Below, piece by piece: positions 5,181 to 22,308 of a stretch of DNA of 32,094 bases. The notes below the pieces were generated by a model. The model was not told the origin of the DNA and did no database searches. It worked only from the letters and a program-made list of their open reading frames with translations. This DNA comes from Clostridiales bacterium (GTDB taxonomy: Bacteria; Bacillota; Clostridia; Lachnospirales; Lachnospiraceae), in the NCBI GenBank assembly GCA_021201535.1, contig JAJQEU010000058.1, forward strand, positions 1 to 32,094, written 5' to 3'. The position numbers and the translations under genes were made by a program. Positions within the stretch are counted from its first letter, which is position 1. Every line of letters begins with the position of its first letter.

Positions 5181-5355
5181 TGACATTGATAGCTGAGAAG
5201 CGTGAGGTTGCTGCCTTCGTGGCAGGTTTTCCGTGGAGCGAATGTCAAGTTAGGAAACTGACGACAAGTCACTGTACGAAAGGAAGCCGAGAGGCCGAAT
5301 GCCGTGTGGGAACGAGATGAAACACACGGGGGAGTGTACAGTCACCGCTTGTCGT
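5181..5355 (+). promoter_or_regulatory. Structured rpsJ leader RNA (putative r-protein autoregulatory element)
   Basis: Two closed domains can be drawn by eye. Domain A is closed by TGACATT (5181-5187) with AATGTCA (5241-5247) and holds the hairpin CTGCC-TTCGT-GGCAG (5211-5225). Domain B is closed by ACGACAAG (5261-5268) with CTTGTCGT (5348-5355). After an internal loop it continues as ACTGTAC (5271-5277) with GTACAGT (5336-5342), and branches into GCC-GAGA-GGC (5286-5295) and CCGTGTG/CACACGG (5302-5329). All named helices are perfect Watson-Crick. The element ends about 20 bases before the AAGGAGG site of rpsJ. Feedback control by a ribosomal protein of the S10 operon is the natural guess. 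In E. coli that role belongs to L4 with an unrelated leader. I cannot match this structure to a named RNA family. Confidence 0.7.
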
Positions 5356-5392: not shown

Positions 5393-5704
5393 ATGGCAAA
5401 TCAGGTCATGAGAATCATTCTGAAAGCGTATGATCACGAGATGGTGGATGCATCCGCGAAGAAAATCATCGAAACTGTCAGGAAAAACGGATCCCAGGTG
5501 AGCGGACCGGTACCCCTTCCTACGAAAAAGGAAGTAGTAACGATCATCAGAGCTGTCCACAAGTACAAGGATTCCCGTGAACAGTTCGAGCAGAGGACCC
5601 ACAAGAGACTCATCGACATCATTGCACCGACCCAGAAGACGGTCGACGCGCTGAGCAGGCTGGAGATGCCCGCAGGCGTAAGCATTGATATAAAGATGAA
5701 ATAG
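5393..5704 (+). CDS. rpsJ: 30S ribosomal protein S10
   Basis: This is the first gene of the S10 operon. S10 belongs to the 30S head and, as NusE, partners NusB in transcription antitermination. The length of 103 residues is standard. Signature stretches are [12 protein letters not shown] (about 34-45) and [14 protein letters not shown] (about 62-75), the latter in the extended loop. The AAGGAGG ribosome binding site ends 11 bases before the ATG, separated by a T-run. It is preceded by a long structured leader. An unusually long 204-bp hairpin-rich gap follows before rplC, so translation of rplC is not coupled to rpsJ here. Confidence 0.98.
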
Positions 5705-19707: not shown

Positions 19708-20301
19708 ATGGCAGTAAACAGAGTACCTGTTCTTAAAAGATGCAGATCACTTGGCCTGGAGCCGACATATTTAGGAATAGATAAGAAATCAAAAAGACAG
19801 TTAAAGAGAGCAAATCGAAAAGTTTCCGAGTACGGTCTTCAGTTACGGGAGAAGCAGAAGGCAAAGTTCATTTACGGTGTTCTTGAGAAGCCTTTCCACA
19901 ACTACTATGTGAAAGCCGACCGGATGAAGGGCATGACGGGCGACAACCTCATGATCATGCTGGAGTCCAGACTGGACAATGTCATCTTCCGTCTCGGGAT
20001 GGCGAGAACCCGGAAAGAGGCGCGTCAGATCGTGGATCATAAGCATGTGCTTGTGAACGGGAAATGCGTGAACATTCCTTCTTATTTAGTAAAGGCCGGC
20101 GACACGGTCGAGATTCGGGAGAAGTCCAAGGGCTCCCAGAGATACAAGGATATTCTCGAGAAGACGGAGGGACGTATCATACCGGAGTGGCTGGAGTCCG
20201 ACCTTGAGAATCTGAAAGGCGTCGTAAAAGAGCTGCCGACCAGAGAGATGATCGATGTTCCTGTGGACGAGATGCTGATTGTCGAGTTGTATTCCAAATA
20301 A
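19708..20301 (+). CDS. rpsD: 30S ribosomal protein S4
   Basis: S4 nucleates 30S assembly, guards the mRNA entry and is a known autorepressor. The 197-residue protein has the S4 RNA-binding domain at about 88-150 ([35 protein letters not shown]). It is the zinc-free form, as only C12 is present near the N-terminus. B. subtilis keeps rpsD alone with its own leader; here it is inside the alpha operon as in E. coli. That makes control through the rpsM leader plausible. Confidence 0.98.
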
Positions 20302-20344
20302 TTGATGTAAGCGGTATCACTATAATTAGAAGGAGGACTACTGC

Positions 20345-21304
20345 GTGTTCGATTTTGAAAAACCCAGAATTGAGATTGCTGAAATTTCAGAAGACAAGAA
20401 GTACGGCAGATTTGTTGTAGAACCGCTCGAAAGAGGATATGGCACTACACTTGGCAATTCCCTGAGAAGAATTATGCTCTCGTCCCTGCCCGGTGCAGCG
20501 GTCAGTCAGGTTAAGATCGACGGTGTCCTGCATGAGTTCAGTTCCATCCCCGGTGTGAAGGAGGATGTGACAGAGATCATCATGAACATCAAGAATTTAG
20601 CATTAAAGAATACCAGTCCGACAAATGAGTCAAAAGTTGCTTACATCGAATTTGAAGGAGAAGGAGATGTGACCGCGGCGGATATTGAGGTGGATCCGGA
20701 TGTTCAGATCATGAACCCGGAGCTTGAGATCGCGCATCTGAACGGCGGTACAGATTCCAGGCTGTACATGGAGCTCACCATCACAAAGGGGCGCGGTTAT
20801 GTCAGTTCAGAGAAGAATAAGACGGAAGATACCCCGATCGGCGTGATTGCGGTTGATTCCATTTACACCCCGGTGGAGCGCGTGAATCTCTCTGTGGAGA
20901 ATACACGTGTGGGGCAGATCACGGATTATGATAAGCTCACACTGGATGTTTTTACAAACGGGACGTTAGAGCCGGATGAGGCTGTCAGTCTTGCTGCGAA
21001 GGTTCTGAGTGAGCATCTGAGCCTCTTCATCGACCTCTCGGAGAATGCGAAGACCGCTGAAGTGATGATAGAGAAGGAAGACAATGCCAAAGAGAAGGTT
21101 CTGGAGATGAATATCGATGAACTGGAGTTGTCTGTGCGCTCCTATAACTGCCTGAAGCGGGCGGGCATCAACACCGTGGAGGAACTGACGAACCGTACAC
21201 CGGAGGATATGATGAAGGTGCGTAATCTGGGGCGCAAGTCCCTGGAAGAGGTTCTTGCGAAGTTAAAAGAGCTGGGACTGCAGCTGAATCAGGGTGAAGA
21301 GTAA
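20345..21304 (+). CDS. rpoA: DNA-directed RNA polymerase subunit alpha
   Basis: The 319-residue subunit has a complete N-terminal dimerisation domain ([35 protein letters not shown], about 27-61) and, after a linker, the C-terminal domain ([49 protein letters not shown], about 258-306) that binds UP elements and activators. The start codon is GTG, behind AGAAGGAGGA. A 43-bp gap precedes it and a 278-bp structured gap follows. Confidence 0.98.
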
Positions 21305-21307
21305 GGC

Positions 21308-21557
21308 TGATCCTGCTGATTGCATTGCCGCAGAGAGCAGCGTGTGACACAGGACAGGATCATGTCAGTTTCGGCAGGGCATATAGGTCCGATGAGCGAT
21401 GCCCGGTCGGGCGACCGGTATCTGATTCGCTGTATTAGCAGCGTATGGGATGTGTGACACAGGATACCGGCTCATGATGAAATCAGATCAGTGGAGGAAT
21501 ACCGCACAAAACAGGGTGCGGGCATCTGACGGATAAGACCGCAGGCGCTGTCAGATG
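21308..21557 (+). promoter_or_regulatory. Structured rplQ leader RNA with a duplicated module
   Basis: Module 1 is closed by TGATCCTG (21308-21315) with CAGGATCA (21355-21362). Module 2 is closed by CCGGTATC (21415-21422) with GATACCGG (21463-21470). In both, a GCTG...CAGC hairpin is followed by the identical 13-mer GTGTGACACAGGA (21342-21354 and 21452-21464) right at the 3' closing strand. Between them lie GGGCAT/ATGCCC (21377-21404) and an overlapping CCGGTC-GGGC-GACCGG (21403-21418), which also competes with module 2. After module 2 come CCGCAC/GTGCGG (21502-21521) and CATCTGAC/GTCAGATG (21523-21557), then the CGGAGG ribosome binding site of rplQ. A protein or ligand binding two equal sites is suggested. 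Confidence 0.7.
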
Positions 21558-21582
21558 TACCACAAAAACGGAGGATTATAAA

Positions 21583-22107
21583 ATGGCAAAATATCGTAAG
21601 TTAGGCAGAACATCAGACCAGAGAAAAGCGCTGCTGCGCAATCAGGTGACGGCGCTGCTGTATCACGGCAGGATCGTTACGACGGAGGCCAGAGCGAAGG
21701 AGGTCCGCAAGCTTGCGGAGAAGATGATTGCGCTGGCGATCAAAGAGGCTGACAACTATGAGGAGGTAACCGTTAAGGCAAAGGTTGCCCGCAAGGACAA
21801 GGACGGAAAGAGAGTCAAGGAAGTGGTAGATGGAAAGAGAGTCACCGTTTACGACGAGGTTGACAAGAAGATCAAAAAAGATCTGCCCTCCCGTCTGCAT
21901 GCCAGAAGACAGATGTTGAAGGTATTTTATCCGGTTGTTGAGAAAGGCGCTAAGAAAAGAGAGACGAAGAAAGTGGATCTGCCGGATAAATTATTTACGG
22001 AGATCGCGCCGAAGTATAAAAACCGCCAGGGCGGTTATACCAGAATCGTAAAGATCGGACCGCGCAAGGGCGATGCGGCGATGGAGGTTGTACTCGAGCT
22101 GGTGTAA
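21583..22107 (+). CDS. rplQ: 50S ribosomal protein L17, long form with internal insertion
   Basis: L17 binds near the tunnel exit. At 174 residues it is about 50 longer than the usual 115-125. The family parts are intact: [49 protein letters not shown] (1-49), [11 protein letters not shown] (105-115) and [32 protein letters not shown] (143-174). The extra part, about 52-103, is a charged lysine- and valine-rich stretch ([30 protein letters not shown]) replacing the short turn normally found there. It is the last gene of the superoperon. Confidence 0.97.
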
Positions 22108-22112
22108 TGGCG

Positions 22113-22158
22113 GCAAACGAGGCGGATATACGGTTTGCATAAAATGTTTGCGCATTTT
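22113..22158 (+). other. Two stem-loops just after rplQ
   Basis: GCAAAC/GTTTGC (22113-22138) is followed by AAAATG/CATTTT with a TTTGCG loop (from 22141), ending in a T-run. They precede the main terminator and may be a weak first terminator or a 3' stability element. Confidence 0.4.
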
Positions 22159-22199
22159 TGGACAATGCCGTCGAATGTATGTGCATGTAGCAGTAAGGG

Positions 22200-22248
22200 A
22201 CGGACAGAATGTATTGATTTTTTTGTACATTCTGTCCGTTCTTTTATT
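22200..22248 (+). terminator. Intrinsic terminator of the ribosomal superoperon
   Basis: A perfect 14-bp stem, ACGGACAGAATGTA (22200-22213) with TACATTCTGTCCGT (22226-22239), is closed by a T-rich 12-base loop and followed by TCTTTTATTT. Confidence 0.93.
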
Positions 22249-22308
22249 TGACTATGTGAGAATGTGCCGATTAATAACTTTTTGTTATTACAATAAAGGT
22301 TTTATGTA

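Follow-up and report, generated by a model that had tools for sequence, protein, structure and literature searches.

Tandem copies of a covarying RNA module between rpoA and rplQ in Lachnospiraceae, a candidate leader for ribosomal protein L17

RNA elements with a proposed role in the control of rplQ, the gene for ribosomal protein L17, are known from other bacteria. An L17 r-leader is predicted in Actino- and Proteobacteria, according to the available text of PMC7247131, and was assigned to L17 since rplQ is the sole regulated gene; in the same text, predicted r-leaders are named after the downstream r-protein where only one exists. The L17 downstream element, RF01708, is proposed to serve L17 feedback in Firmicutes, is listed for Lactobacillales and Listeria, and has GNRA tetraloops (PMC2864571, available text). 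Whether there is a control site between these genes was already at issue in 1984, when one between rpoA and rplQ was proposed for E. coli (PMC10931766, available text). The protein bL17 influences how domain III of 23S rRNA forms, and it mediates the stable folding of H47-49 (PMC9935924, available text).

The stretch of DNA analyzed here, referred to as the window, is 32,094 nt in length. The gap between rpoA and rplQ spans positions 21305-21582 and measures 278 nt, the length also given in a first-pass annotation made from the sequence alone. The features of this locus are as follows, in order; R1 is the covariance model of the module described below.

20345-21304, + strand: rpoA, the 5' neighbor of the leader (Pfam PF01000, PF03118 and PF01193)
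21308-21362, + strand: hairpin 1 of the first-pass annotation, with a 13-mer at 21342-21354; strain-specific and outside the conserved element
21372-21409, + strand: leader module 1, stem CGGCAGGGCAT/ATGCCCGGTCG and loop A-UAGGUCCGAUGAGC-G (cmsearch with R1, 35.7 bits, E 2.4e-6 in the window, a match by construction as both window modules are among the 60 training sequences)
21415-21470, + strand: hairpin 2 of the first-pass annotation, with the 13-mer at 21452-21464; strain-specific and outside the conserved element
21491-21494, + strand: 5' strand (GTGG) of P1, the outer helix of module 2; pairs with 21560-21563 in the MFE structure of this unit
21502-21521, + strand: extra hairpin CCGCAC/GTGCGG between P1 and module 2, from the fold; a like sequence is found in leaders L004, L005 and L197
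21522-21558, + strand: leader module 2, stem GCATCTGACGG/CTGTCAGATGT and loop A-UAAGACCGCAGGC-G (cmsearch with R1, 36.2 bits, E 1.8e-6, likewise by construction)
21560-21563, + strand: 3' strand (CCAC) of P1 of module 2, 6 nt 5' of the Shine-Dalgarno core, from the fold and covariation in relatives
21570-21574, + strand: Shine-Dalgarno core GGAGG of rplQ, from the sequence, with its position taken from the fold
21583-22107, + strand: rplQ, ribosomal protein L17 (174 aa), the presumed controlled gene (Pfam PF01196, 109.3 bits)

One RNA module occurs twice in the window leader, and the strain-specific hairpins lie before the first copy and between the two. The next-best R1 match in the window scores 11.2 bits. 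The fold of the whole leader has a z of -2.25 relative to shuffled sequences. A counterpart of module 1 is present in four leaders of the same genus (L195-L198).

The module consists of an 11-bp stem and a loop that reads R-UAAGNCC-N(4-7)-GC-R. Loci of relatives were fetched from GTDB by way of L17; the best 80 matches were taken and four without a readable rpoA end were set aside, which leaves 76 gaps. UAAGNCC is present in 72 of the 77 rpoA-rplQ gaps formed by the window and these 76; over 300 letter shuffles the count averages 2.1 and never exceeds 6. The motif is mostly found as the loop of a stem. It is preceded by a purine in all 109 copies, which the search pattern did not require. GC follows at a loop length of 13-17 in 107 of the 109 copies and is then followed by a purine in 107 of 107; neither of these was required by the pattern. 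The T, G, C, C and GC that are invariant in the module alignment (A1, below) are in part a consequence of the pattern used for collection. A small inner stem in the loop (C-C with G...G) is possible in 56 of 58 distinct loops, with some of the residues required by the pattern, and hence this count does not serve as a test.

The stem, in contrast to the loop, is free in sequence and maintained in pairing. When stems were located by the loop sequence alone (106 copies from 71 leaders, two copies without GC and one that is cut being left out), the 93 unique stems showed 81% pairing versus 37-42% in slid registers; none of 1000 shuffles was as good, the best reaching 55%. Alignment A1 holds 60 of 110 modules, with near-duplicates and weak modules omitted and both window modules included. 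Here 89.1% of the stem cells are paired versus a shuffled mean of 51.8, and all 11 pairs vary on both sides. The covariation score is 1.024, compared with a shuffled mean of 0.274 and 0.233 for the best slid register. This pattern of base changes shows a conserved, covarying RNA element in the rplQ leader. The first-pass annotation had proposed a structured rplQ leader with two copies of one module and covarying stems, and this description holds for 21372-21409 and 21522-21558, a pair of segments that it had not named.

The segments that it did name are the two hairpins containing the 13-mer GTGTGACACAGGA, which is 100% identical at 21342-21354 and 21452-21464. The exact repeat and the closed stems both exist, although the folds are unremarkable relative to shuffles (z of -1.75 and -0.77). 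The proposal that these hairpins (21308-21362 and 21415-21470) are the tandem binding modules draws on this repeat and on degenerate copies in two near relatives. The distribution of the 13-mer makes that proposal scarcely credible. In the same genus L17 is present in 18 of 20 genomes, which provides 17 leaders besides that of the window, and the exact 13-mer is in none of the 17. With up to two mismatches it is found as a single copy in each of L195 and L196, and with up to one mismatch in L196 only. The leader of L197, whose L17 is 96% identical, is 170 nt in length and retains neither hairpin. Among the 76 gaps of the wider relatives (from the best 80 GTDB loci), GTGTGACACAGG is absent from all and GTGACAC occurs in L005 only, twice. 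The annotation had itself named a 13-mer confined to this strain as evidence against its proposal, and for the exact 13-mer this is what the 17 leaders display. It had also predicted covarying outer helices; in an alignment compared by eye the outer helix of hairpin 2 is apparently kept in L195 and L196, with a change to G-U in L196, and no compensatory change is seen. The hairpins thus stand as structures of this strain, and not as a conserved functional module.

The 13-mer has a palindromic core, GTGTGACAC, at both places (window 21342-21354 and 21452-21464). The leader of L196 is 361 nt and appears by eye to contain further degenerate copies. A third exact copy in the genome of the window is on another contig, within what appears by eye to be a long repetitive coding sequence.

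The R1 model was used to search genome samples; it was trained on rplQ leaders, and the GTDB loci and the genome samples probably overlap, such that the sets are not independent. At E<=0.01 R1 gives 62 matches, spread over 50 of 100 family genomes. All 62 are on the strand of rplQ and 12-173 nt upstream of it, and 40 of the 62 end 21-29 nt before the gene. Of these 100 genomes 96 have a detected L17, and 95 entered the comparison (the fragmentary L17 of G069 was excluded; a second L17 place in G016 was retained, with a leader that has a weak match, L188). A further 45 genomes have a usable L17 start but lack a genome-wide R1 match. In 13 of them a weaker match (E<=0.05) appears when the leader is searched on both strands, and all 13 are inside the rpoA-rplQ gap on the sense strand. 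There is no module match in the other 32 of the 95 genomes, where 23 gaps are shorter than 50 nt and nine are 55-135 nt. With R1 and weaker matches combined, the module precedes rplQ in 63 of the 95 genomes, about two thirds.

Samples of more than 40 genomes were searched with stricter scoring filters, by which weak matches are lost. Under these filters 21 of 196 genomes of the order have R1 matches, 18 from the same family, including the window's own, and three from another family. All three matches from the other family fall in the rpoA-rplQ gap, and in the fold of each the module is enclosed by a 9-pair outer helix. In the phylum sample 3 of 299 genomes have matches; all three belong to the same family as the window, whose own genome is among them. 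Within the genomes examined, the module is an element before rplQ in Lachnospiraceae-type bacteria. Covarying structure together with a specific association with an r-protein gene, the general marks of an r-protein leader, are both present (62 of 62 matches in the family and 3 of 3 in the second family). The first-pass annotation had also linked the leader to an unusually long L17. The window L17 is 174 aa compared with a Pfam profile of 97 columns, but of the 96 family genomes with L17, 88 show an unbroken match over residues 1-174, many of them without the leader, and the link is not supported.

Three other RNA families were seen in the course of these searches. An S10-Clostridia ribosomal protein leader (RF03136, 94.7 bits) is at window positions 5187-5267 on the + strand, and a 103-aa reading frame follows downstream at 5393-5704. 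A Clostridiales-1 RNA (RF01699, 63.1 bits) is at 2374-2582 on the - strand. In two relatives' loci a TwoAYGGAY RNA (RF01731) is found shortly 3' of rplQ on the opposite strand (L017, 2692-2817, and L021, 2666-2831, both -).

The number of modules differs between leaders. The 67 leaders that hold an accepted module comprise 32 with a single accepted copy, 23 with two copies at least 45 nt apart and 12 with two copies that nearly abut; leaders with two or more modules thus number 35 of 67 at this stricter cut-off and 38 of 71 at a laxer one. Many leaders read CCACAAAUGGAGG or a variant of it 3' of the last module. By sequence comparison, the last module is usually just 5' of the ribosome-binding site of rplQ and in part of the set is closed by the outer helix P1 (NUGG/CCAN), with the 3' strand of P1 ending near the Shine-Dalgarno sequence. 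A first, generous search for outer helices gave a weak result (10/200 and 8/200). In the narrower search for NTGG/CCAN the N positions form Watson-Crick pairs in 20 of 31 leaders compared with a shuffle mean of 12.7 (0/2000 as good), a test that is partly post hoc, as it was framed after the sequences had been viewed, and whose shuffles ignore relatedness. The 31 derive from 89 leaders, of which 78 have an accepted last module; 27 of these are without CCA and six have a short upstream region, leaving 45 usable leaders and 31 with TGG. The window is outside the 31, with its GTGG located farther upstream, beyond the extra hairpin, and P1 of the window is predicted from the fold.

A second GGAGG is present at 21493 after GTGG (window 21491-21497, +), upstream of module 2, and its placement is much like that of the Shine-Dalgarno sequence after module 2. 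Judged from this likeness, it looks as if a unit had been duplicated.

In part of the 27 spaced tandems considered, module 1 has a putative outer helix of its own, P1a, of the kind ACUCAU/AUGAGU (9 of 1000 swaps as good, with the same two qualifications as for the P1 test). In spaced tandems the 3' strand of P1a shares positions with the 5' strand of module 2's P1. This arrangement would allow a two-stage switch in widely spaced tandems, where the outer helices of module 1 (AUGAGU) and module 2 (GUGG) are mutually exclusive and L17, or L17 with a second protein of the operon such as S4, selects the state and thereby sets translation of rplQ. As a model this is speculative and unlikely; the literature consulted describes no tandem r-protein switch of this type. 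A helix of the ACUCAU/AUGAGU type is absent from the window leader.

An extension of P1 that would sequester the Shine-Dalgarno sequence was considered and rejected. It was matched by 49 of 5000 letter shuffles, but shuffling of partners gave 56 observed versus 55.4 expected (2424 of 5000). The predicted pairing of the Shine-Dalgarno sequence is moderate, with a mean unpaired value of 0.46 over 63 leaders and 0.6 in the window.

The rpoA-rplQ gap is probably an rplQ-specific ribosomal-protein leader by which L17 represses its own translation; we infer both L17 as the ligand and repression as the direction of control. L17 in surplus over 23S rRNA would bind the module loops. The bound protein would stabilize the module and P1 next to the ribosome-binding site, which would block initiation at rplQ and leave the upstream rpoA untouched. 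The second, upstream copy of the module may increase affinity or set a second threshold. Two sites may also sharpen the response, as proposed in the first-pass annotation; in 32 of the 67 leaders just one copy is accepted. Translational control is the most likely mode, given that the leader is between two genes of one operon and no terminator is seen in the gap. A simple scan of 20300-22300 on the sense strand gave no terminator; the same scan also overlooked a T-rich inverted repeat that is visible 3' of rplQ.

Mimicry of the L17 site in rRNA was considered and set aside, as nothing rises above shuffled rRNA by sequence or covariance model. The best R1 match to E. coli 23S rRNA is 8.1 bits (E 0.88). 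A loop profile gives best scores of 12.2-14.1 in four rRNA loci (E. coli 23S and those of three relatives), whereas the top scores of 20 letter-shuffled versions of E. coli 23S range from 7.7 to 16.3. Look-alikes in E. coli 23S at about 1262-1279, 1299-1309 and 1950-1966 and in 16S (GTTAAGTCCCGCAACGAGCG) are regarded as chance.

The main rival to L17 as ligand is S4 (uS4), whose gene is upstream in the same cluster. With a second site in the gap, S4 would repress rplQ along with the operon's first genes, and such a site before rplQ was the 1984 proposal for E. coli, made without strong evidence (PMC10931766, available text). The conserved GUAA of the Firmicutes S4 leader, which imitates rRNA (PMC7247131, available text), also has a counterpart of sorts in the (G/A)UAAG of the loop described here. 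Against this, all 62 family matches are within 173 nt upstream of rplQ and none precedes rpsM or rpsD, and no Rfam S4 family matches the leader at E<=10 or the window at the gathering threshold. We regard S4 as a rather unlikely ligand.

A role that involves no ligand would be that of a processing or stability element, with an RNase site or a protective hairpin setting the level of rplQ mRNA relative to rpoA. The intercistronic position is compatible with such a role, as are a stem whose structure is kept while its sequence is free and the existence of single-copy and absent forms. However, the conserved loop, including its purines and GC outside the pattern, and the tandem copies suggest specific recognition, and the tie to rplQ would be left unexplained, so that this explanation too is unlikely. 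A sensor of a small molecule, e.g., a riboswitch, would also be in keeping with a conserved loop and a tandem build. At about 38 nt and with a single long stem, the hairpin is nevertheless small for a known riboswitch, and only an r-protein gene is downstream in the 50 genomes; this last explanation is very improbable. Feedback by L17 remains the preferred reading. If true, it would show how rplQ is set apart from rpoA within one operon, and the compact and strongly covarying 38-nt module makes the question of L17 control directly testable with one protein.

Searches of described systems did not find this build. The window leader has no credible match in Rfam 15 at E<=10 (two weak matches to snoRNA families have E values of 5.5 and 7.3), and the rplQ leaders of 20 relatives have no match at the gathering threshold. 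The open-access literature searched contains no other L17 or rplQ leader and no experimentally proven L17 leader. The statement in the first-pass annotation that no L17 leader of this build is described thus agrees with Rfam 15 and the literature searched, where r-protein leaders, and an L17 leader elsewhere, are already known. The glycine riboswitch, which the annotation had used for comparison, is similar in its tandem modules but differs in that a single copy is accepted in 32 of the 67 leaders here. Its aptamers are much larger and it is associated with other genes. The S4 r-leaders of Firmicutes and Clostridia are in the same operon and have a conserved GUAA or GAAA; the Clostridia S4 r-leader is listed for rpsM, rpsK, rpsD, rpoA and rplQ (PMC7247131, available text), and the window has no Rfam S4 leader at the gathering threshold. 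RF01708 is similar in its proposed L17 feedback, but it is 3' of the gene with GNRA tetraloops (PMC2864571, available text), whereas the element here is 5' of rplQ; RF01708 is absent from the window at the gathering threshold and from the leader at E<=10. No Rfam family of the kind of the Actino- and Proteobacterial L17 r-leader, a motif that Rfam 15 may or may not contain, matches the window leader at E<=10 or the leaders of the 20 relatives at the gathering threshold. Compared by its description, that r-leader is likewise an RNA predicted to control rplQ, but in other phyla (PMC7247131, available text).
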